Below, one piece after another: positions 432 to 64,000 of a stretch of DNA of 64,000 nt. How positions within the stretch are numbered: position 1 is the first letter of the stretch; every line of letters starts with the position of its first letter. The notes under the pieces were generated by a model. The model searched no databases, was not told the origin of the DNA, and saw nothing but the letters and a program-made list of their open reading frames with translations. The position numbers were made by a program, and so were the translations under genes. Origin of the DNA: Nymphaea colorata (taxonomy: Eukaryota; Streptophyta; Magnoliopsida; Nymphaeales; Nymphaeaceae); NCBI RefSeq assembly GCF_008831285.2, contig NC_045146.1, positions 20,351,289-20,415,288 of the forward strand, read 5' to 3'.

Positions 432-2790
432 GAGATGAAACATGATCGTAAAAACTGGTGGTCTGAACCTAGCCTGTATGCAGCCTTAATGAAGAGCCAT
501 GAGCAGTCTTCTTTTGTGCTTGCTCTTTAATGTATTTGCTGAAAATTTGAAATTATTTGAGTGAATCTCTCTCTTTTTGTCATAATTTAAGCATGCCCAT
601 ACTTGTCTATCTAACAATAAGAACACTAGTTGTGTACACGGTTAGATTTTGGTAGATCACTCATGCTGAAAGTTACTTCATATTTGATTATTTGAGTCTT
701 GCAATTGTATTAATCAGATATTTTAATGTTACAACAGCCGTTATTTTTTACGATACATTAAACTCAAAAATTGATGGACTTAACATATTTGTCCTATAAA
801 ACCACTCCTAAAATCATGCCTATGGGGCTAAATAGGGAACACAATAATTATTTTGATAAACTATTTTTAAATGGTCTGATTTCTGCCCCCTGTACCTCCT
901 CTCTCTCTCTCTCTCTCGACTTTTCATCTTTTCCTTTTTTTCCTTTTTGTCCTGCTATACATCTTGAGGAAAAGGGCCTGAAAAAAGTACTGGCCTGAAA
1001 ATGGAACTGATTTCTCTCATTTCTCAAATATAAATGCACAGAAACAGAGGCACAAGTTGATTTACTTGGATTGCGGCAACTTAAATGTGTCAGTTTGATG
1101 GTTTCTTTCAAAAACCTATATCCGCATATGTAGAGGATCCCAGAACCACTACAATATAGAAAATAAACCATGATTTTTCAACACCGGTATCAGATTTTGT
1201 AAACCAAAATTCAGCTTCCAATAACGATGAATCTGTTATACGATTAAATTCTCTGGGAAGTAGGGCATGGTGTAGGAATTGCATAGTCTAAGGTATACAG
1301 GTAGATGTGCTTACAAATAAGGGACAGCAAGCGGGAGTGCTTTGTCGTTACCTATATTAGTGATCCCTGGATGTCATCTCCTAGACATTAAAAAAAAACA
1401 AAAACAAAAACAAAACAAAAATCTTGAACTTGAAAACTCTAGATCGGCCGAACCTTATGTCTCTACTGCAACAGGTAGTTGGCGCATTATTTGAGTTCTC
1501 ATCTCTTCAACTACCGTGGAGAGATTTGGAGCTGCTAAAACTCACCTCGTCTCCTGTCACTTTTCAAAGTAAGCAGTTTCTTCCAGGTCATCGTGGATGT
1601 TGCGGAATCGTTGAATCCCATCCAACGACCGGCGAGAAAAGTGCAAGAGAACATCTTTTGTTTACTGAAATATTTTATTTAGACTTTCGTCTTTTACTCT
1701 CTCTGTAGTTGATTATGCATTGGCATTGAGGAGATTTGCCCGGGCTTTTCTTCTAATTGGGAATGAAGGGGCAATATTTTGACTGATCACATGAAAGAAC
1801 CTCGGTAAAATTGTGGGGCAATTTCCATTTTTGAAGCCAATTAACAAGTCGCCACTCGGTTTTCATGAACAACGATAGTTACAGCCTGTTTCTTGGAGTA
1901 CCGAATTGTGGCATTGAAAAGTCAGATAGGCATGCATGCATGCATTTTGCCACTATTGCAGTACAGCATTTACATGTCCCAAGGTTATGAACCATTAGAA
2001 GTTAGTTTATCTAAGTTATGAATTTTCTGCAAAGGTGCAAGAGTGCCTTTTTCAACTGACCCGGAGCGGCTTAGAATCTGCAAAGAGACACGGTATGAGT
2101 AATCAGCGGTTTGCCTACACATCAAAAATATCAAATGGTACGTCTTACATTGCAAGCTCTGAATTGCGTTTCAGGTCAACCACTCAACTAACTTCTGATT
2201 TGTAGGTAAACTTCTGATGCCATGCTTACCAGTAGGATGCCACTATGATGGTAAATTGTGTAAGCTAAAGGCCCAAGAAAGCTTATAATTGGGCACCAAA
2301 CAGAGTTGATATGGCTTTTGTCAATTCTGTAGCTCAAACTGGAAAGAGCTTATAAATGAAGCACCCAACCTTCGACCAACCAGCTACACTAGGACTTCAA
2401 GTGGTACATTATGTAGTCCAAAGGCGACGACCTTCATAATGAAGCACCAAACCAATCTGACCTTCTTAATGGCTTCGGGTAGCGGTCTATTCTATAAATC
2501 ATTAAGATGCGAACTGCAAGTTAGAAGCGCCTACGCTTGGCCAGGCATCCGGCTTGATGCAGGTCTTCGATTAGATTCGATCGGGAGTTCAAAAATCGAT
2601 ACCTCGTCTTATCTGTAAAAGGAAAAATGAAGGCGCGCACTGAAACCAACTTTTTAACCTTATTGATTATTTTTTTAATGTTTGCCTCTTATGGCAGACT
2701 AGACCCCGGCCAGTTCGCTAAGAATTAGGTGAACAATCGCCCTGTTAGCTGAACTTCCAACCAACCACAATCACATTAATTAGTCTCTCA
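432..2790. other. Intergenic, no gene seen
   Basis: AT-rich DNA without a frame I can support. A 94-codon open frame at 1424-1708 starts on TTG and matches no family I know, so I do not call it. A CT run lies near 900-920 and an A/CA-rich run near 1390-1420. The last 300 bases are the upstream region of the DUF538 gene. Confidence 0.6.
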
Positions 2791-2798
2791 ATATAAGC
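2791..2798 (+). promoter_or_regulatory. TATA-like box of the DUF538 gene
   Basis: ATATAAGC lies 93 bases before the ATG at 2884, a normal distance for a plant TATA box with a leader of about 60 bases. Position and motif only; no transcript evidence. Confidence 0.5.
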
Positions 2799-2883
2799 AC
2801 ATACCCTGAACATTCATCTACTTCTTACACACAATCAAAACGCAGATCAAAGGCAAACAAGGAGAGGGCCTCTTGAGTTCTTC

Positions 2884-3348
2884 ATGGCCGCCCTCGTGTT
2901 GAGCGAGCAGAAAACGTTGAGCGACCTAAAGGCTGGTGGGGAGGTGGTTTATGGGGCAGAAGAGTGCTACCGCCACTCCCTGGAGCTTCTGGAGGAGCTG
3001 GGGTTCCCTAAGGGAGTGCTTCCTCTCAAGAACTTGGAGGAGTGTGGGAGGGTCAGGGAGACGGGGTTTGTGTGGATGAAGCAGAAGGAGCCGTATGAGC
3101 ACTACTTCAAAGGCACGAGCAGCAAGGTGAGCTACGCCACGGAGGTGACGGCGTACATAGAGAAGCACAAGATGAAGAAGATGACGGGCGTGAAGACCAA
3201 GCAGATCCTTCTATGGATTCCGCTGACGGAGATGAGCATCGACGACCCCACCAGCAAGAAGATCTACTTCAAGACGTCGATGGGGGTGGGGCGCTCTTTC
3301 CCCTTCTCTGCTTTCGACTGTGAGGAGGAGGAGAACGGAAATCAGTGA
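2884..3348 (+). CDS. DUF538 family protein
   Basis: Intact single-exon gene of 154 residues. It carries the whole DUF538 (PF04398) core: LELLEELGFPKGVLPL (residues about 33-48), the ECGRVRETGFVWMKQK stretch (53-68), EVTAYIEKHKMKKMTGVK (about 86-103), LLWIPLTEMSIDDP (108-121) and the closing KIYFKTSMGVGRSFPFSAF. Length and lack of introns fit the short, soluble members without signal peptide; the N terminus (MAALVLSEQK) is not hydrophobic enough for secretion. The ATG follows a TATA-like box by 93 bases, and no better upstream start exists. The family is plant-specific; members are linked in the literature to stress response and chlorophyll breakdown, but no biochemical activity is visible here. 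Composition is clearly more GC-rich than the flanks, typical of an expressed exon. Family call is very safe; function is unknown. Confidence 0.95.
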   Translation: MAALVLSEQKTLSDLKAGGEVVYGAEECYRHSLELLEELGFPKGVLPLKNLEECGRVRETGFVWMKQKEPYEHYFKGTSSKVSYATEVTAYIEKHKMKKMTGVKTKQILLWIPLTEMSIDDPTSKKIYFKTSMGVGRSFPFSAFDCEEEENGNQ

Positions 3349-4543
3349 GCCAAACCCACGGATTGGTCTCCCTCGGATCTCATTGAGATCACATGAGTCG
3401 TACCATAGAATAAGCCTGTTTGAGTGCCACGTTATCCATCGTTGTCCTGCATCCTACATTCTGTATGTCTTCTTCTTCGTCCATTTTATGCGTCGTCTTG
3501 TGGCCCTTATGTTTGCTTACTTATCATTTGGTCAAGGAATACCAGTTAATGTAAAAGTCTGTTCTTTCTGCAAAAATTATTGAGATAGACAAAGCTTGAT
3601 AACAACAGGGGAGTTCAGAGTTGTGAAAGGTGTTGCGAACTTGAGCAATATACCATCTTGAAACCGGAACCTTCTAATACTGTTATCCCATGGTATGATG
3701 AGACTCTCCCGAGTTTACCTTCCAGAGGCAGGCCCTTTCAGTGCTCTAGTCTTCCAAGTTTTCTTTGTTACTTAAAAATAATCATGATAGCTAAATTTCA
3801 TCAATACAAATTAAACTAGGTTCGTTCTTGTTAAATAAGTGTTACGTTTGAGTGACCCATGAAATCTGTCAACTTAGGTTGTGATTTTGCCGTGTGAGAT
3901 GAGAAAACTTACTTTCTGCAAATTTTTTCGGCTTAACTTGCTAAAACCATCGATTTCTCTCTTTTAATTAATTATTCACCAAATGCTTCGCCAATCTGCA
4001 GAATCAAATTTGGGTTTCTCCAGAGTCGAGACCTTTTTAAATCAAAGTGTCATTTTGTATTAATATGGAATTTAGACATAAAACGGGTCAAGGCTTTCGT
4101 ATTCCTTCATGTTTGGTTACCATAGGTTGCAATCTAAAAGTAGACCAATAGCTTCAATGAAAACTGACAAGTTATAGCTATCCTGATGGTTCTTAGCCAT
4201 CCTGCGGTTGACTGAGTCAAGGTTCGATTTTCATAAAAGTTCAGGTTCTAAAAGGTAGCTCAGATATTTCCGGAACCCTTGCGTGGAGATTTAAATTTGG
4301 TCTAAAAGTTGGTTGAAAGTCACTTTATCGTTTATACTTAAAAAAAGTGTATATACAGAAGCCCTCAATAAATGGTCGACAATAACTTTAACATAAAATA
4401 TGGCTTCCTACCATTGCCATTTGCTTCTAACTGCCGTAAGCTACTCCAGTTTCAGAACAAAAATAAGGATAAAGCTTAACCGTTGTAAAATCCTAATAAA
4501 AACAATACCCAAACACTAAATATAACGACACCCAAACACGAAA
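3349..4543. other. Intergenic; 3' end of DUF538 gene, then nothing clear
   Basis: The first 200-300 bases are the likely 3' UTR. The 87-codon frame at 3320-3583 overlaps the end of the DUF538 gene and is a shadow. The rest is AT-rich, with no family-like translation. Confidence 0.55.

Positions 4544-46462: not shown

Positions 46463-46542
<80 letters not shown>
46463..46542 (-). tRNA. tRNA-Leu (anticodon UAG)
   Basis: An 80-base type II tRNA on the minus strand. The 7-bp acceptor stem pairs GACAGTT with AGCTGTC (one G-T), with A as discriminator. A box TGGCCGAGTGGTCTAAGGC and B box GGGTTCAAATCCC are intact. The anticodon stem CCAGA/TCTGG encloses TTTAGGC, giving UAG, which reads CUA leucine codons. 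A short variable arm (TCCGAAAGGGC region) fits leucine. No intron. The overlapping open frame (MAEWSKAPDLGSG...) is the well-known false protein from a tRNA-Leu gene. Confidence 0.97.
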
Positions 46543-54793: not shown

Positions 54794-57107
54794 ATGATGG
54801 AGAGGGAAGGGTACTGCACAGGAGATGACGAATCGGATTCAGTGACGATCATAAGACCCTCCTCTTCCCACAAGGTCAGGAAGAAGAGGAGGTTCAGCCA
54901 AGAGCAGATCAGGTCCCTGGAGAAGATATTCGAGAACGAGACCACCAGACTCGAGCCCAGGAAGAAGGTGCAGCTGGCCAGAGAACTGGGGCTGCACCCC
55001 AGGCAGATCGCCATCTGGTTTCAGAACAGGAGGGCTCGGTGGAAGACCAAGCGCGTGGAGAAAGACTACGGCCTCCTCAAGGCAGATTACGATGCGCTGC
55101 TTGCTAGCTTTGAATCTCTCAAACAAGAGAAACAAGCCCTTCTTGAACAGGTAACTTGTAAGTTTTGCTGTTTGCTGCTTTCTGGTTCATCATATATTCT
55201 TCGCGAAGATGGTTTCTGGAACTTCAAATTGAATTTCTTACTAGAGAAAAATACTTTTCTTTTTCTCGGATTGATCATGCGATTGAAGCGAGCATGCATG
55301 TTCCGAGAATCCAAGGTGATCTCGTATTCTTCCCCTTGAGAAGGAAGCTGCCTTCTTAGGATTGCTGTGCATGCTGTTACATATATTAAGAAATTAAGAT
55401 CCATGAGCGTACTAAGCAAATTATAGAACATCCGGCTCATCCCCCTGACTTCGAAAGGCTGTCTGAACGGCCCTCTCATGAACACAAGCCAGTAGCCATG
55501 CAGGAGCGAGCTGAATTGATGCTTGCTTATGTGAAAATTAAATGTTTGTTCTCCAAAAGTATCTAGAATATTTATGCGTAGATCCTTTTTTGCAAAACAC
55601 GTCTCCGTAACATATTTTTTCTGTTCATGATTTGTCTGATCACAAGTCATTAAACCTTTTTTCTTTCTAATGCAAAAATGAATCTTTGAACGACTTAATT
55701 AGACCACTTAGTGAGTCTACATATCTAGAGATAGGCCATGTATAAGCCTTCATCGCCCTGCTCCTGCGCTGCATGAAAAAGAAAGAAAGAAAAAAGAAAA
55801 CTCATACAGTGAATAGGTAACCTTGAAACTTGGCCTTGAGTTTTTCACCTTCACACCATTCCCTTAGACTCACTTTACCATATCAATTGAGCTGCCTATT
55901 GCGCAATGATTGGTTCAATTATTGAACTTATGCTGGTTGTCAAATCCATATCGGATTATTCGGCTTCTCTGACACACTGCTAATTAGGGTGTGAATCATG
56001 CGTGACATGAGTGTGGGACACGCTATTATTAGCATGACCAGCACCTAACAATTAACACATGCTATCTGCGATAGTTACGTAGTTTTTTAGCATCTTCTGT
56101 CATATCTTAGAAATAGAAACTTACTTTTAACATAAACAGCGTAAGAGATAACAAAACTATTTAAAATAACAAACACGAACCATCCGTTCTTGTCTTGTGA
56201 AAGTTTCGAAACCCCTGTATTTATTTCGTTCAAGCAACCTACTCGATCGGTTGCAACCCTGGAGGATGATCGTTGCTTCGAAAATAAGAAACTTTTATTT
56301 AGTATAAACATTCATTTGTATCTTTCCAGCTTCAAGGCGAGGAATAAATTAGTAATCTTCCGCGTCCGTGACTCTAGTGGAGACAGGTCGAACGGCCCAC
56401 CTCTTCGATTCGAGGAAGGGTCAGCTTGAGCCGGTGTACGTGCCCAGTCTGCCTGGTCCATCATATATATATATATATAGTCCTTGAATTATCTGATCCT
56501 CCTGGTCCAAACTTGACACGCACAACCAGATCTACAGTACAGTTGCCAACATAAATTTACAACAGTTCTAGATCCATCCCTGCATTGGATCTTCTCTCAG
56601 ATCCCGGTCTGTAGCACAAAATATGGGCTTAGATCTGCTTCATATCGGAAATGCTTGAGGGGATATATACTTGCAAGTTGCATGAAACGGGCAAGTAATT
56701 AAGCAAACTATACTGCTGTTTGTTCTGATATACAGATAGAGAAGCTGAGCAGGCTGTTGGAAAAGCGGCCCGAGTCGGATGCCGGGGAGCAGAGGGCATG
56801 GTGCGAGAACAGCGTTGAAGGCTGCTCGGAAAATAGAGACCGGAAATCGGGCTGCCAAAAGGACATGATGGGTCGGGAAGGAGAACCAGATATGAGGTCG
56901 GGTTTGTTGTCAGACAGTGAGTGCAGCAAAGCGATGGAGAAGTCGAGGAAGGAGGAAGACCAGGATCATCAGGACGGGGTTCTCGCCGAAATCAACGGCT
57001 ATGGCTGCGGACCCTCTTGCTTTTCTGGTAGATCCTACGGCCTGGAATCGTCATTATGTTGCTATCCTGACCAAATTTCGCAATGGCCTTGGGAGCTCTG
57101 GCCTTAA
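54794..57107 (+). CDS. HD-Zip class I transcription factor, ATHB7/12 type
   Basis: Two exons, 54794-55150 and 56736-57107, with a 1585-bp GT-AG intron inside the zipper; 242 residues. The homeodomain (about 28-88) contains [32 protein letters not shown] and the recognition helix [14 protein letters not shown]. The leucine zipper follows directly with heptad leucines at 95, 102, 109, 116 and 123, and [14 protein letters not shown] is typical of the ATHB7/ATHB12 (rice HOX22/24) branch. There is no START domain or CPSCE motif, so class I not II-IV. The acidic, polar C-terminal half ends in SQWPWELWP, an aromatic AHA-like activation motif. Two ATGs are adjacent; either may be used. Branch members bind CAATNATTG and respond to ABA and drought; that role is inferred. 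Odd: one extra Thr ([10 protein letters not shown], where relatives have nine residues) between helices I and II. Confidence 0.95.
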
Positions 57108-60061: not shown

Positions 60062-60069
60062 ATCTACCT
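60062..60069. repeat. Target-site duplication, left copy (ATCTACCT)
   Basis: ATCTACCT directly before the left terminus TAGGG at 60070; identical to 62956-62963 directly after the right terminus. Confidence 0.9.
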
Positions 60070-60572
60070 TAGGGCTGCACACGAGCCGAGTCGAGCTCGA
60101 GCTTGCCCAGCTCGAGCTCGACTCGACTCAACGAGCTCGAGCTCGAACTCGAGTCGAGCTACCTAACACAAGCTCGAGCTCGACTCGATTAACTCGATTA
60201 GCTCGTCTAAATAAAAATGATCCTTCTTTTTAAAATATCTAGTAAATTTCATGACGTGGGATGAAATTTGTGAATCACTCAACTCTGCCAACAGTTTAGA
60301 GCTGCAAATAGACACCATTTGGTATTAGACTGTTCTCATTATTAAATATTATAGAATCATAAGCTGATGACTGAACTGAACAAAATGTAAATAGGACATA
60401 ATGTATACAAGGAAATAAAAGTTTAAAATTAGCTACACAGTATGGTAAAATAACAGCCAACTTCAGTAGCTTCAGCATATGTCCTTTGATGGAAAAACAA
60501 ACGAGCAGATTCAAGTCCAGATCTGAGCAGAGCATCATCTCCCAGAGGAAATTGGATAATAGCAGCAAAGTA

Positions 60573-61008
60573 TTGAGCAAGCTTTAGAATATAGTTTGAG
60601 AAAACGTAGACAGGAGTCGAGATCAAGGCTATGCAGAACAGAAAATAACCCATGACCTCTGGCTTTGCATGTAAATCCCCAGCATCCTCAACCTCCCAGC
60701 TCCAAAGGCCTGTCCACACAGTGTCTCCAAAGCACTTCCCATACCCAGCTGCCATGATCACCAAAACCCAGTTCAAATTTCCAACAGAAATCATCCAATA
60801 CATAGATGATATAATAAAGGACATGCTCCTTAGTGCAGAACAGAAAATACGCAAATGATATAATACAATATATGTTCCTTAGTACAGAACAACTAGCAGA
60901 TAGAAACAAAGCATTTTTGGTTTGATGTCATGGGCTGCCATGTCTTACCAAGAAGCCAAAACCCAGCCCTGCAACCACATAGTTCTCTATGGACACAGCA
61001 GCGAGCTC
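60573..61008 (-). pseudogene. Captured MATE (DTX) transporter fragment, frameshifted
   Basis: Inside the hAT element, minus strand. Exon one ends at 60949 with ELAAVSIENYVVAGLGFGFL and a GTAAG donor; exon two starts at 60748 after a GGCAG acceptor and reads [18 protein letters not shown] then [15 protein letters not shown]. This is the block following the second membrane helix of plant MATE efflux carriers, closest from memory to the Arabidopsis DTX33-35 group. At 60631-60629 the frame meets a TAG; the homology resumes in another frame as ALISTPVYVFSNYILKLAQ (60629 to 60573). Two extra residues (SQ) break YMQRSW. The intron, 60948-60749, is kept, so the copy came from genomic DNA, not mRNA. 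Everything before ELAAVS and after ILKLAQ is missing or unrelated. Not a functional transporter. Confidence 0.82.
60789..60900. repeat. Local tandem duplication inside the captured intron
   Basis: Two adjacent diverged units share GATATAATA..., CTCCTTAGTGCAGAACA / TTCCTTAGTACAGAACA. They fall between the two MATE exons and so enlarge the intron without touching splice sites. Confidence 0.65.
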
Positions 61009-61282
61009 CATAGCCATAGCTTCTTGCTCTCTATCAGTGATCTCCTGCACAGAGTGGGACTGCTCTGGTTCTCCAGCAGGGGAAGTGCGTTGGAGACAAT
61101 CTAGCTTACAATGAAGTACGTCAAACATGAGAAGCTAACAACCTAAAAGAATTTAACATGAGAAAATGTTGTACTTTTACAGATGGATGCACATTCTCGC
61201 TGTTCTACTCTTTACTGGCAGGCCCTTTAGTGTAATGTGCACTAAATATTATTGCAGGATTCCCAGCCATGGCCCATGAATG

Positions 61283-61484
61283 AATGAATGAACAGAAAAA
61301 ATCATCCCAGGCAACAGAGCAAGAAACAACGTGAGAAGATAAATAAAAAGAAAGAATAATAAAAGCTATTTATTTCAAGCCATGAATGAATGAACAGAAA
61401 AAATCTTCCCAGGCAACAGAGCAAGAAACAACGTGAGAAGATAAAGAACAAGAAAGAATAATAAAAGCTATTTTTTTCAATGTT
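61283..61484. repeat. Tandem duplication, about 102-bp unit
   Basis: The unit GAATGAATGAACAGAAAAAA...CAGGCAACAGAGCAAGAAAC...AATAATAAAAGCTATTT occurs twice head-to-tail, offset 102 bases, with only a few differences (ATCATCCC/ATCTTCCC; AAATAAAAAG/AAAGAACAAG). It lies within the hAT element. Confidence 0.88.
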
Positions 61485-62490
61485 TCATGCCTAGACCCTT
61501 TAGTGCCTAAGTGAAGGCCTTGCACACAGGTGGATCAACACATGCCTGGCACACATGTCATAAACAATATATAAAAAGAATTTATGTTAATGAAATAAAA
61601 AATCACGTGAACATGAAGGAAGAAAAAGGAAATGTGGATCAATGTTGTTCCTGTAAAGCTTGGTGAACAAGATTTAAGAAAGAAAATATTGGACAGGCGA
61701 GATTTGAAGGTTTCTAACATGGCTAAAAACCGTCGACTGCTTAGGAAGAGCAAATTTCTTCCAAGCAATCACTTTGCACGAGGAAAAAAAATAACAAAAT
61801 CTCTTTGACCCCTTTCTAGCCTTCTTTCTCATTTCTAACCACCAAAATAGGCATTGCATCAAGAAATTCAAAACAACAAAACAGGCTTCACAAAACAGGT
61901 AAGAAGGAGGAAGAGGAAGAAGATGAACAACAAGGAGAAGAAAAGAAGGTTGAAGGGGTACCTGACGTGAAGGCGGGGGCAGAAAGCACGCCTCTAGAAG
62001 CAATTACGACCTCAATATTTATCCCTTTCTAAGATCTCTGCCAAAATAAAAAGCAAAAAAATGATTAATAAGAGGATGAAGTCAAGGATTTGTTTGAAAG
62101 CACAGGCGCAGCACAAGATGTTCAAAACTTTGACCCCTGGAGGAGCATTAGCATACCATCGGGCGTTAGGCAGAGCAGAGGGCGGTGGTGGGCCGGTGGC
62201 GGTGGCAAAGAAGGAAAATGAGGAGGAAATGCAGACAGTGGAGCTGTCGTTCACGTGCTTGTGCAGACCCTGCGAAGGTGAGTCTGTGAGGATGAGGTGT
62301 CACCGTGTCACGGACTCACGAGAGTTTAAGAGAGAGAGAGGCAAAGAAAAAGCGCATGAAAAAGAGGGGAACATACCTGGTGCTCACACAACAAGCGTTG
62401 CCAATCTTTTGGGTCGTCTCTGGATGCTCATTTGTGTTCTTTTCATTGTGTGGACTGTCGTGGGGAGCCTAAACGAAACGCAGACGGCAG

Positions 62491-62578
62491 GCCGGATGGT
62501 GGAGCTGGTGGTTAGATGTTGAATGCCATTGCCGGACGGTGGAGCTGGAGCCTGGTGGTTAGATGCCAAATGCCGGCC
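62491..62578. repeat. Diverged tandem repeat, GGTGGAGCTGG unit
   Basis: CCGGATGGTGGAGCTGGTGG with TTAGATG... is followed by CCGGACGGTGGAGCTGGAGC with TGGTGGTTAGATGCC, two related units near the right end of the hAT element. The frame at 62523-62711 runs through it and is not a gene. Confidence 0.6.
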
Positions 62579-62955
62579 GGTGGTCCGGTGGAGATGGTGT
62601 GCGGCGGTGGCGGTCTGGGCCGTCTGGCGGAGAGGAGAGGACTGGATAGATAGTCGACGGAAGAGAGAGAAAAGGGGAAAAGAACTTATAACCGATCAAT
62701 TTTTACCCTAAACCGGTGAACCGGTTTTGGTAAATTTGTGTTATCGGTTTTCAAAATTTAAACGGTTTTATATAAACGAGTCGAGTCGAGTATAAACGAG
62801 TCGAGTTCTTAAAACTCGAACTCGACTCGTTTACTCATTCGAGTTTCATTGTAAGCTTGAACTCGACTCGTTTATAAACGAGTCGAGCTCGAGCTGAGTT
62901 TAACCGGGCGAGTTCGAGTCGAGCCCGAGCTGGCTCGACTCGTTGTGCAACCCTA

Positions 62956-62963
62956 ATCTACCT
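62956..62963. repeat. Target-site duplication, right copy (ATCTACCT)
   Basis: Directly follows the right terminus (CCCTA at 62951-62955) of the hAT element and matches 60062-60069 exactly. Confidence 0.9.
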
Positions 62964-63202
62964 TTAGTAACTAGCTAGGATAAGGCAGAGGAGTGTGGTA
63001 CATGCATGTGCGGACCATAAAAATAATATAGGAGTCATTTAGTTGGGAAAGCATATCATACTAGAGAGGGTAAGATGGTGATGAGTTGTAGGAAGATCGA
63101 TTGTGCATGTATCATAACAACCCTGCCCACTCGGACAATGGGCTTCGGCTGGTAGCTGGTGGATTCCAACCGACCTCCTAACAGCTTTGGTTTCAACCCT
63201 AA
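62964..63202. other. Intergenic
   Basis: Short stretch between the hAT element and the next repeat; no gene seen. Confidence 0.5.
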
Positions 63203-64000
63203 GGGCCCGTTTGATGGGCGGGGTAAATTGAGAGGAACGGTTGAAAAATGTACGGGCGGATGAAATTTCACCCGCCTGACTGAAAACGTAATAAACATGG
63301 TGAAAGTTCACTCGTTTGACGTAAATGGGAGCGGGTGAAACTTCAACCGCTCGAAAGTCCGAGCTCGCAGCTCGGACTTTCGACCGGGTGAAGTTTCACC
63401 CGCTCGACATGTTTGCCTTTTCACCCCAATTCCTCCCGCTCGACATGTTTGCTTCTTCACCCTTCTTCCTCCCTCCGCTGCTCCTCCTCCCTCGCCGTCG
63501 CCTTCTCACCGTCGCACCAGAGGCGTCTGCTGGTTCCCTTTCTCTCTTGCTCGCAGCTCCGCTCCTTCGCTGGTTCGCCAACGCCATAGTCGCCGCTCTC
63601 AAGTAACGATTTCTCCTTTTTTCTTGCTCTGTCCCTTTCAGAAACACCCAAATCTATTTGTTCTCTGTTTTTACACATTGCTGTCGTTGTCTCTCTTTCT
63701 CTCTCGTTGTTGCTTCTATTGCTCTCGTTGCATGTAGATTCCATAGTTTATAGAGAGAAGGAAGGGGACGGTAGGTTGAGCTACGTGGGAGAAATCTGTC
63801 TATCTCTCTCTCTCTCTCTTTCTCTGTTGTTGAGGTCCAGATTTCTTAGACGTTTCGTGTTTTGCTTATTAGTTCAAGATTTAGTTCTTCGCTGACCTTT
63901 ATCTACAGTCGGGGATTCGAAGAATTTTCTGTTTAGTCCGTGTTTTTTTTGGATCTCCAGTATAGTAATTGTCTGGATTTCCTGAAGAGTTGCTGATTGC
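63203..64000. mobile_element. Left part of a palindrome-rich repeat, cut by window edge
   Basis: It opens with GGGCCCGTTTGATGGGCGGG after TAA, the usual look of a plant DNA-transposon terminus. Four GGGTGAA-TTCACCC palindromes follow at 63255-63276, 63297-63314, 63329-63352 and 63381-63406. From 63400 on the DNA is CT-rich, with frames such as 63325-63606 that lack family signatures. CT runs lie near 63690-63705 and 63800-63822. The right end is beyond the window, so the class is not settled. Confidence 0.5.
63329..63405. repeat. Hairpin with 37-bp arms
   Basis: Arms 63329-63365 and 63369-63405 are reverse complements with two mismatches, separated by only three bases (CGC). The outer part of each arm is the GAGCGGGTGAAA motif and the inner part is TCGAAAGTCCGAGCT. 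Confidence 0.92.

Follow-up and report, generated by a model that had tools for sequence, protein, structure and literature searches.

A Pack-hAT element of Nymphaea colorata shares its captured host gene fragments with transposase-bearing relatives

The window, a 64-kb stretch of DNA in which positions are counted from the first letter, contains a complete hAT-type element of 2886 bp (60070-62955) that carries fragments derived from two or more host genes and no transposase. The same pieces, with shared junctions, are present in members of the same transposon family that do carry transposase sequence, and a comparison with one of them identifies a deletion scar in the window copy. Overall, the patchwork was very probably captured in a transposase-bearing ancestor, with later deletions giving rise to the copy in the window.

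RESULTS

A complete element of a dispersed hAT family

The element was recovered in a scan for ends and flanking duplications. The termini (left, TAGGGCTGCACA; right, reverse-complemented, TAGGGTTGCACA) are short inverted repeats of the form TAGGG[CT]TGCACA, ~12 bp long and with one mismatch between the two ends of the window copy, and the element is flanked by an exact 8-bp target-site duplication. The original prediction of a complete hAT-type element with an exact duplication and TAGGG ends was thereby confirmed, as were its subterminal repeat blocks: CTCGA-type repeats cluster near both ends, and the six occurrences of CGAGCTCGA on the plus-strand text of the whole window all fall in the terminal parts of the element, five within its first 150 bp and one within its last 200 bp. 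The coordinates of all features are collected in Table 1.

Table 1. Features of the window element and its flanks (positions in the 64-kb window)
Feature	Position	Strand	Remarks
Target-site duplication, left copy	60062..60069	.	ATCTACCT, exact
Left terminus and subterminal CTCGA-rich repeats	60070..60410	+	Common to short relatives (421-568 bp) and larger copies
Second host gene fragment	60462..60582	-	Parent C7:2282389-2282504, 89%; in-frame fusion with MATE exon 2
Captured MATE exon 2	60578..60748	-	+6 and +2 bp relative to parent
Captured MATE intron 1	60749..60948	-	200 bp; donor GTAAGA and acceptor GCAG kept
Captured part of MATE exon 1	60949..61082	-	87 bp of the parent exon absent between 61010 and 61013
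MATE exon 2 piece of 19 nt, inverted	61080..61098	+	Capture edge; partner 60722-60740
Piece matching C5:18576339-18576466, 99%	61096..61223	+	Genome search
Deletion scar	61221..61223	.	A42 1207-4241 absent; GGC common to both edges
Internal segment of the window copy's subfamily	61224..61905	+	
Older family sequence	61906..62769	+	Upstream of transposase in transposase-bearing relatives
Right subterminal repeats and right terminus	62770..62955	+	Sequence comparison with copies
Target-site duplication, right copy	62956..62963	.	ATCTACCT, exact

The predicted lack of a transposase also held: a tblastn search with the 759-aa frame of a sister element (A53, described below) at E ≤ 1e-3 found no transposase in the window element, and 8 of the 19 elements tested do match. 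The 141-aa frame of the element matched no Pfam family at E ≤ 0.001, and its PDB matches (antibody chains, E of 0.12 and 0.83) were taken as chance. With host coding DNA between terminal inverted repeats and no transposase match, the window copy qualifies as a Pack-hAT under the definition that reserves this class for elements lacking transposase. MULEs generate 9-bp duplications, and the window element, with one of 8 bp, differs in this respect from a Pack-MULE.

Genome searches returned at least 79 matches for the left 504 bp (40 of 1199 first-look candidates scored) and at least 151 for the whole element (40 of 2284); both counts are lower bounds because 40 first-look candidates were scored in each search. 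The ends were then scanned in 41 sequences, namely the window and 40 stretches fetched from the match lists, including the parent gene of the MATE piece (L039), with up to four substitutions tolerated per end and up to two mismatches in the 8-bp duplication. Both ends and a matching duplication were found in 25 of the 41 (the window copy counted), of which 22 have exact duplications and 3 (L042, L045, and L065) have one mismatch. The 16 misses were the parent gene, L043, L046 to L049, L051, L053, L057, L059, and L072 to L077; several of these run past the edge of the fetched stretch, and the remaining ones likely have diverged or truncated ends. Two misses proved to be exact once they were completed with neighboring sequence: A53 (L053; 6645 bp, duplication GCTGAATG) and A46 (L046; 6922 bp, duplication GTCACCAA). 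Across the resulting 27 elements, the shortest of 421 bp and the longest of 6922 bp, the target-site duplication is exact in 24 and has one mismatch in 3. The proposed search for sister copies thus yielded 24 fetched stretches other than the window and two more completed later; sisters lacking the 8-bp duplication were looked for and not found. The ends and duplications around the window element are not the product of chance.

Several further features of the family and of the window were observed. Three family copies with a near-identical match pattern (L074, L075, and L076) lie within ~310 kb at C13:13146400-13454100, a pattern that may reflect segmental duplication or local jumping. The stretch 61906-61982 matches many genomic places, often several spaced a few hundred bases apart, and some of these matches adjoin transposase loci of the family (e.g., C5:13345117, C8:11412118, and C7:2118519). 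A 102-bp tandem duplication lies within the element at 61280-61480, with similar cross-matches in L040, L041, and L042. Just outside the element, close to GGGCCCGTTTGATGGG, the region 63200-63480 contains a 36-bp tandem unit and a 37-nt inverted repeat whose arms (63329-63365 and 63369-63405) are 95% complementary; it is perhaps another transposon. Elsewhere in the window, a Pfam scan of 10 frames assigned 3 to a family, namely DUF538 (2884-3348), a partial cytochrome P450 (28888-29949), and a homeodomain with leucine zipper (54794-55339); a tRNA-Leu is located at 46463-46542.

A patchwork of pieces from several host loci

The parent of the MATE piece was sought in the same genome and found at C4:15779468-15780057, a fuller MATE gene with further MATE exons, three stretches of which match Pfam MatE (1.3e-14, 1.2e-5, and 1.9e-5, the last lying exactly at the cut-off). 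Positions 60578-61010 match the parent at 92.5% and 61013-61082 at 91%, and the captured extent runs from 9 nt past the first base of the parent's ATG through exon 1 and the 208-bp intron to 163 bp of exon 2. The window copy differs from the parent at 8 of 132 aligned positions in exon 1, 11 of 200 in the intron, and 4 of 163 in exon 2. Because the intron was kept, capture occurred at the DNA level, as had been proposed, and a retrocopy origin is ruled out. A working transporter is ruled out as well: the MATE frame is broken because exon 1 lacks 87 bp and exon 2 has 6 and 2 bp more than the parent, differences that are common to all six copies aligned. Accordingly, the two MATE-like exons of the original prediction stand, together with their splice donor and acceptor, but their frame is not intact and the adjoining segment 60462-60577 belongs to another gene. 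The wider claim of capture from a MATE gene was borne out by the parent but was incomplete, in that the host DNA comes from more than one source.

The second source was recognized in a search with 60410-60580, which gave 14 matches (all 14 candidates scored), 13 in family copies and one at C7:2282389-2282504. The two genes meet at GCTTG (gene strand, 60578-60582), a motif that is present in both parents and once in the element, and each gene keeps its own reading frame across the join. The join is common to the six copies aligned and is in frame in 12 of the 13 family copies that carry MATE sequence, the exception being L043, which has no such frame. The 331 bp read at the C7:2282389 locus contain an open frame; a Pfam scan relaxed to E ≤ 1 assigned the second gene to no family, and its PDB matches (a designed coiled coil, E of 0.00088; NUDT22, E of 0.61 and 0.69) were rejected as an identification. 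Both genes thus have parents elsewhere in the genome (L039 on C4 and L082 on C7), as is expected of Pack-TYPE elements. The parent of the second gene lies ~34 kb from the transposase locus C7:2246163-2248677 and ~165 kb from that at C7:2115388-2117619, neither of which has a MATE match, and this nearness may point to local capture.

At the other capture edge, a 19-nt piece of MATE exon 2 is inverted. The inverted piece is exact in A42 (L042), a transposase-bearing sister element to which the window copy was aligned, and has one mismatch in the window copy; in A42 it scores 19, compared with a maximum of 11 in resampled sequences (n = 60), or of 12 when these were compared with the parent stretch. 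It is followed by the piece that matches C5. In A42, this match extends to 226 bp and has 9 bases in common with a match of 101 bp to C9:13966586-13966686 (93%), the C5 and C9 joins being placed by search coordinates; beyond 27 unmatched bases past the C9 match, A42 shows 98% identity with loci on C7 and C12 that contain transposase and have no MATE match. For the stretch past the MATE edge, a 13-bp resemblance to the right subterminal region (score 13, with a maximum of 10 among 60 resampled sequences) was dropped because that stretch matches the C5 locus. The patchwork therefore consists of pieces from C7, C4, C5, and C9 in a row, one of them inverted, an arrangement that would fit repair synthesis with repeated template switching. 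Two other segments, 61382-61522 and 61556-61753, have single matches outside the window copy's subfamily (C7:9148431, 90%, and C3:14904996, 86%, respectively) and are possibly further captured host pieces.

MATE sequence was found in 13 dispersed family copies (all 25 candidates of the search scored): the window copy, L040, L041, A42, L043, A46, L047, L048, L049, L050, A53, L054, and L055. The shortest pieces are those of L043 (48 bp) and L050 (59 bp). Element ends were verified in nine of these carriers; the others are L043, in which the first 70 bp of the element find no counterpart, and L047 to L049, whose right ends lie beyond the fetched stretches. A native MATE remnant without the termini was looked for among these places and not found.

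Transposase-bearing carriers of the patchwork

Transposase sequence is present in 6 of the 13 MATE carriers (A42, A46, A53, L047, L048, and L049), always in the orientation of the MATE piece, and these six are consequently not Pack-TYPE elements, which by definition have no transposase. A53 contains a stop-to-stop frame of 759 codons, with the first ATG at codon 16, that includes the hAT-like_RNase-H (1.8e-30) and Dimer_Tnp_hAT (5.1e-30) domains and matches Hermes transposase chains (4.1e-11 to 2.9e-10). Within the fetched parts, A53 is the only one of the six with an uninterrupted transposase frame: the frame contains a single stop in L048 and likewise in L049, is broken into multiple pieces in A46 and A42, and lacks its middle in L047. 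A42, whose duplication has one mismatch, is thus a carrier with a broken transposase frame.

The relatives of this transposase were examined with the 2528-bp transposase block of A42, for which 40 of 168 candidates were scored. Among those scored, five near full-length matches at ≥97% were found, A42 included, and all five are MATE carriers, with L047 as a sixth. The next matches among the same 40, at 94%, were C7:2246163 and C2:24288920, and partial matches were C12:11295711 (97% of 503 bp), C7:2115677 (96%), and C10:6731051 and C11:11647198 (both 95%); none of these six loci has a MATE match. Because the closest of the scored matches are all carriers and the next ones have no MATE match, the patchwork resides in one close transposase-bearing group. 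Within this group, A46 and A53 have a shorter MATE piece with different neighbors. A tree of seven transposase sequences placed A42 beside a MATE-free pair and left the carriers unresolved (support of 0.41 and 0.47); it was not used as support, L057 being partial and its alignment distorted.

Origin of the window copy

Alignment shows A42 to be the window element plus ~3.03 kb that include the transposase (3035 bp, with the shared GGC placed to the left), and by this comparison the window copy appears to have arisen from an A42-like, transposase-bearing element through internal deletion. The scar recurs in L040, which lies on a different contig and is flanked by a different duplication, so the deleted form moved after the deletion; mobility after capture, a mark of Pack-TYPE elements, is thus recorded in the history of the window copy and L040. 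L041 carries a different deletion whose right edge lies within a few bases of that of the window copy, and such near-identical right edges are not expected of two independent events. The label of Pack-hAT given in the original prediction therefore stands, whereas the history that it implied very probably does not, given that the pieces are common to transposase-bearing relatives.

In the explanation that best accounts for these observations, the window element would be a non-autonomous member of a hAT family in which an ancestor that still encoded transposase took up copies of segments from several host loci, which came to lie between the left end of the element and the 3' end of its transposase gene. 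Capture would probably have taken place during gap repair, with the growing strand switching templates, and the MATE piece would have been acquired only once. The patchwork-bearing ancestor would then have spread, and internal deletions, including one that took out the transposase, would have produced the window copy and its sisters; the deleted copies would have moved by means of transposase supplied from elsewhere. Because the MATE piece is shorter in A46 and A53, this explanation needs a further deletion.

The reverse order of events, in which a transposase-less Pack-hAT captured the pieces first and later regained the transposase from a full element, by recombination or by gap repair, is improbable and less simple than capture in a transposase-bearing ancestor. 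L041 joins the MATE edge nearly directly to the right part, resembling a state before entry of the transposase, and template switching could restore sequence as well. Conversely, the MATE-free transposase loci share the A42 sequence at 98% nearly up to the edge of the patchwork, as if the patchwork had entered a transposase-bearing element; furthermore, the window copy and L040 keep the first part of the C5 piece, of which A42 has 98 bp more, as a deletion from an A42-like element predicts.

As to function, it is conceivable but very doubtful that the host chimera has been favored for its position in a transposase-coding hAT lineage, downstream of the transposase, in the same sense and with an intron kept in one branch: each transposase transcript could then double as a transcript of the host genes, and silencing of the transposon could extend in trans to the parent genes. 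It is also very doubtful that the pieces are kept because they encode a small chimeric protein or yield RNA directed against the parent genes, a notion compatible with the origin model proposed here. In 9 of the 13 carriers, MATE exon 2 and the join are covered by an open frame of 123 to 202 codons, the splice sites are kept, and in the six carriers with transposase the pieces share its strand. This frame is broken by 8 extra bp in L040 and L041, L050 has only a short piece, L043 has no such frame, and the second-gene part of A42 runs out of its frame; moreover, a common frame is explained by one shared origin.

Finally, the reading of the MATE piece as a native gene remnant, with hAT-like ends that are coincidental or due to separate insertions, is rejected as virtually impossible: exons and splice sites are present, as they would be in a remnant, but the 13 copies are dispersed, those aligned share one internal join, nine have verified ends and duplications of their own, and a fuller MATE gene lies elsewhere.

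DISCUSSION

How cut-and-paste elements acquire pieces of host genes is still debated. Here, one genome holds the parent genes, the joins, the transposase-bearing carriers, and the deletion derivatives of one family, and because all these stages are found in a single genome, the order of capture versus deletion can be tested. Pack-MULEs and gene-capturing Helitrons are likewise mobile and contain fragments of host genes, which often derive from several loci; the present family resembles them in carrying such fragments and differs in superfamily. Helitrons, for their part, have neither terminal inverted repeats nor target duplications.

Gene capture by hAT elements is already known, and the less usual part of the present case is the transposase-bearing carriers. 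No transposase-bearing hAT element with host gene pieces was found in the literature searched by title and abstract start, a search that left subscription journals mostly uncovered. If the proposed history is true, surveys that list carriers only among transposase-less elements miss part of gene capture. For example, in the widely used pipeline behind the rice and maize Pack-TYPE elements, as described by Gisby and Catoni 2022 (PMC8903248), an element with terminal inverted repeats and a transposase match is called "autonomous" and Pack-TYPE elements are drawn only from the remainder; carriers like A42, A46, and A53 would therefore be absent from its list of gene carriers.

One close precedent comes from maize. 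In the accessible text of Du et al. 2011 (PMC3260210), Ds2-22 contains exons 5 and 6 of a host gene together with their intron, inside an Ac derivative, so that hAT capture with a retained intron is already known, though it is called rare there; Ds2 elements are described as derived from Ac by deletion, with filler DNA. The window element resembles Ds2-22 and Ds-l4 in being a hAT (Ac/Ds) element with an 8-bp duplication and host gene fragments. Unlike in maize, where that text names Ds2 and Ds-l4, not Ac-like elements, as the carriers of fragments, the same pieces are here found also in transposase-bearing relatives, in 13 copies, and joined from several loci.

Similar elements are known from other genomes. 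Among the rice and maize Pack-TYPE elements, Pack-hAT is an accepted class (Gisby and Catoni 2022, PMC8903248), and the window copy shares with them terminal inverted repeats, an 8-bp duplication, host coding DNA inside, and several copies per cluster. It is likewise comparable to Pack-hAT-N8_XT of the western clawed frog, a multi-copy Pack-hAT; the host of the latter is an animal, and no transposase-bearing carrier is described in the accessible part of that report (PMC8277862). The gap-filling and FoSTeST models presented there for animal Pack-TIRs invoke microhomology and template switching at breakpoints. The window copy belongs to Pack-hAT, and the family as a whole, with carriers that bear transposase, represents a variant of this class.
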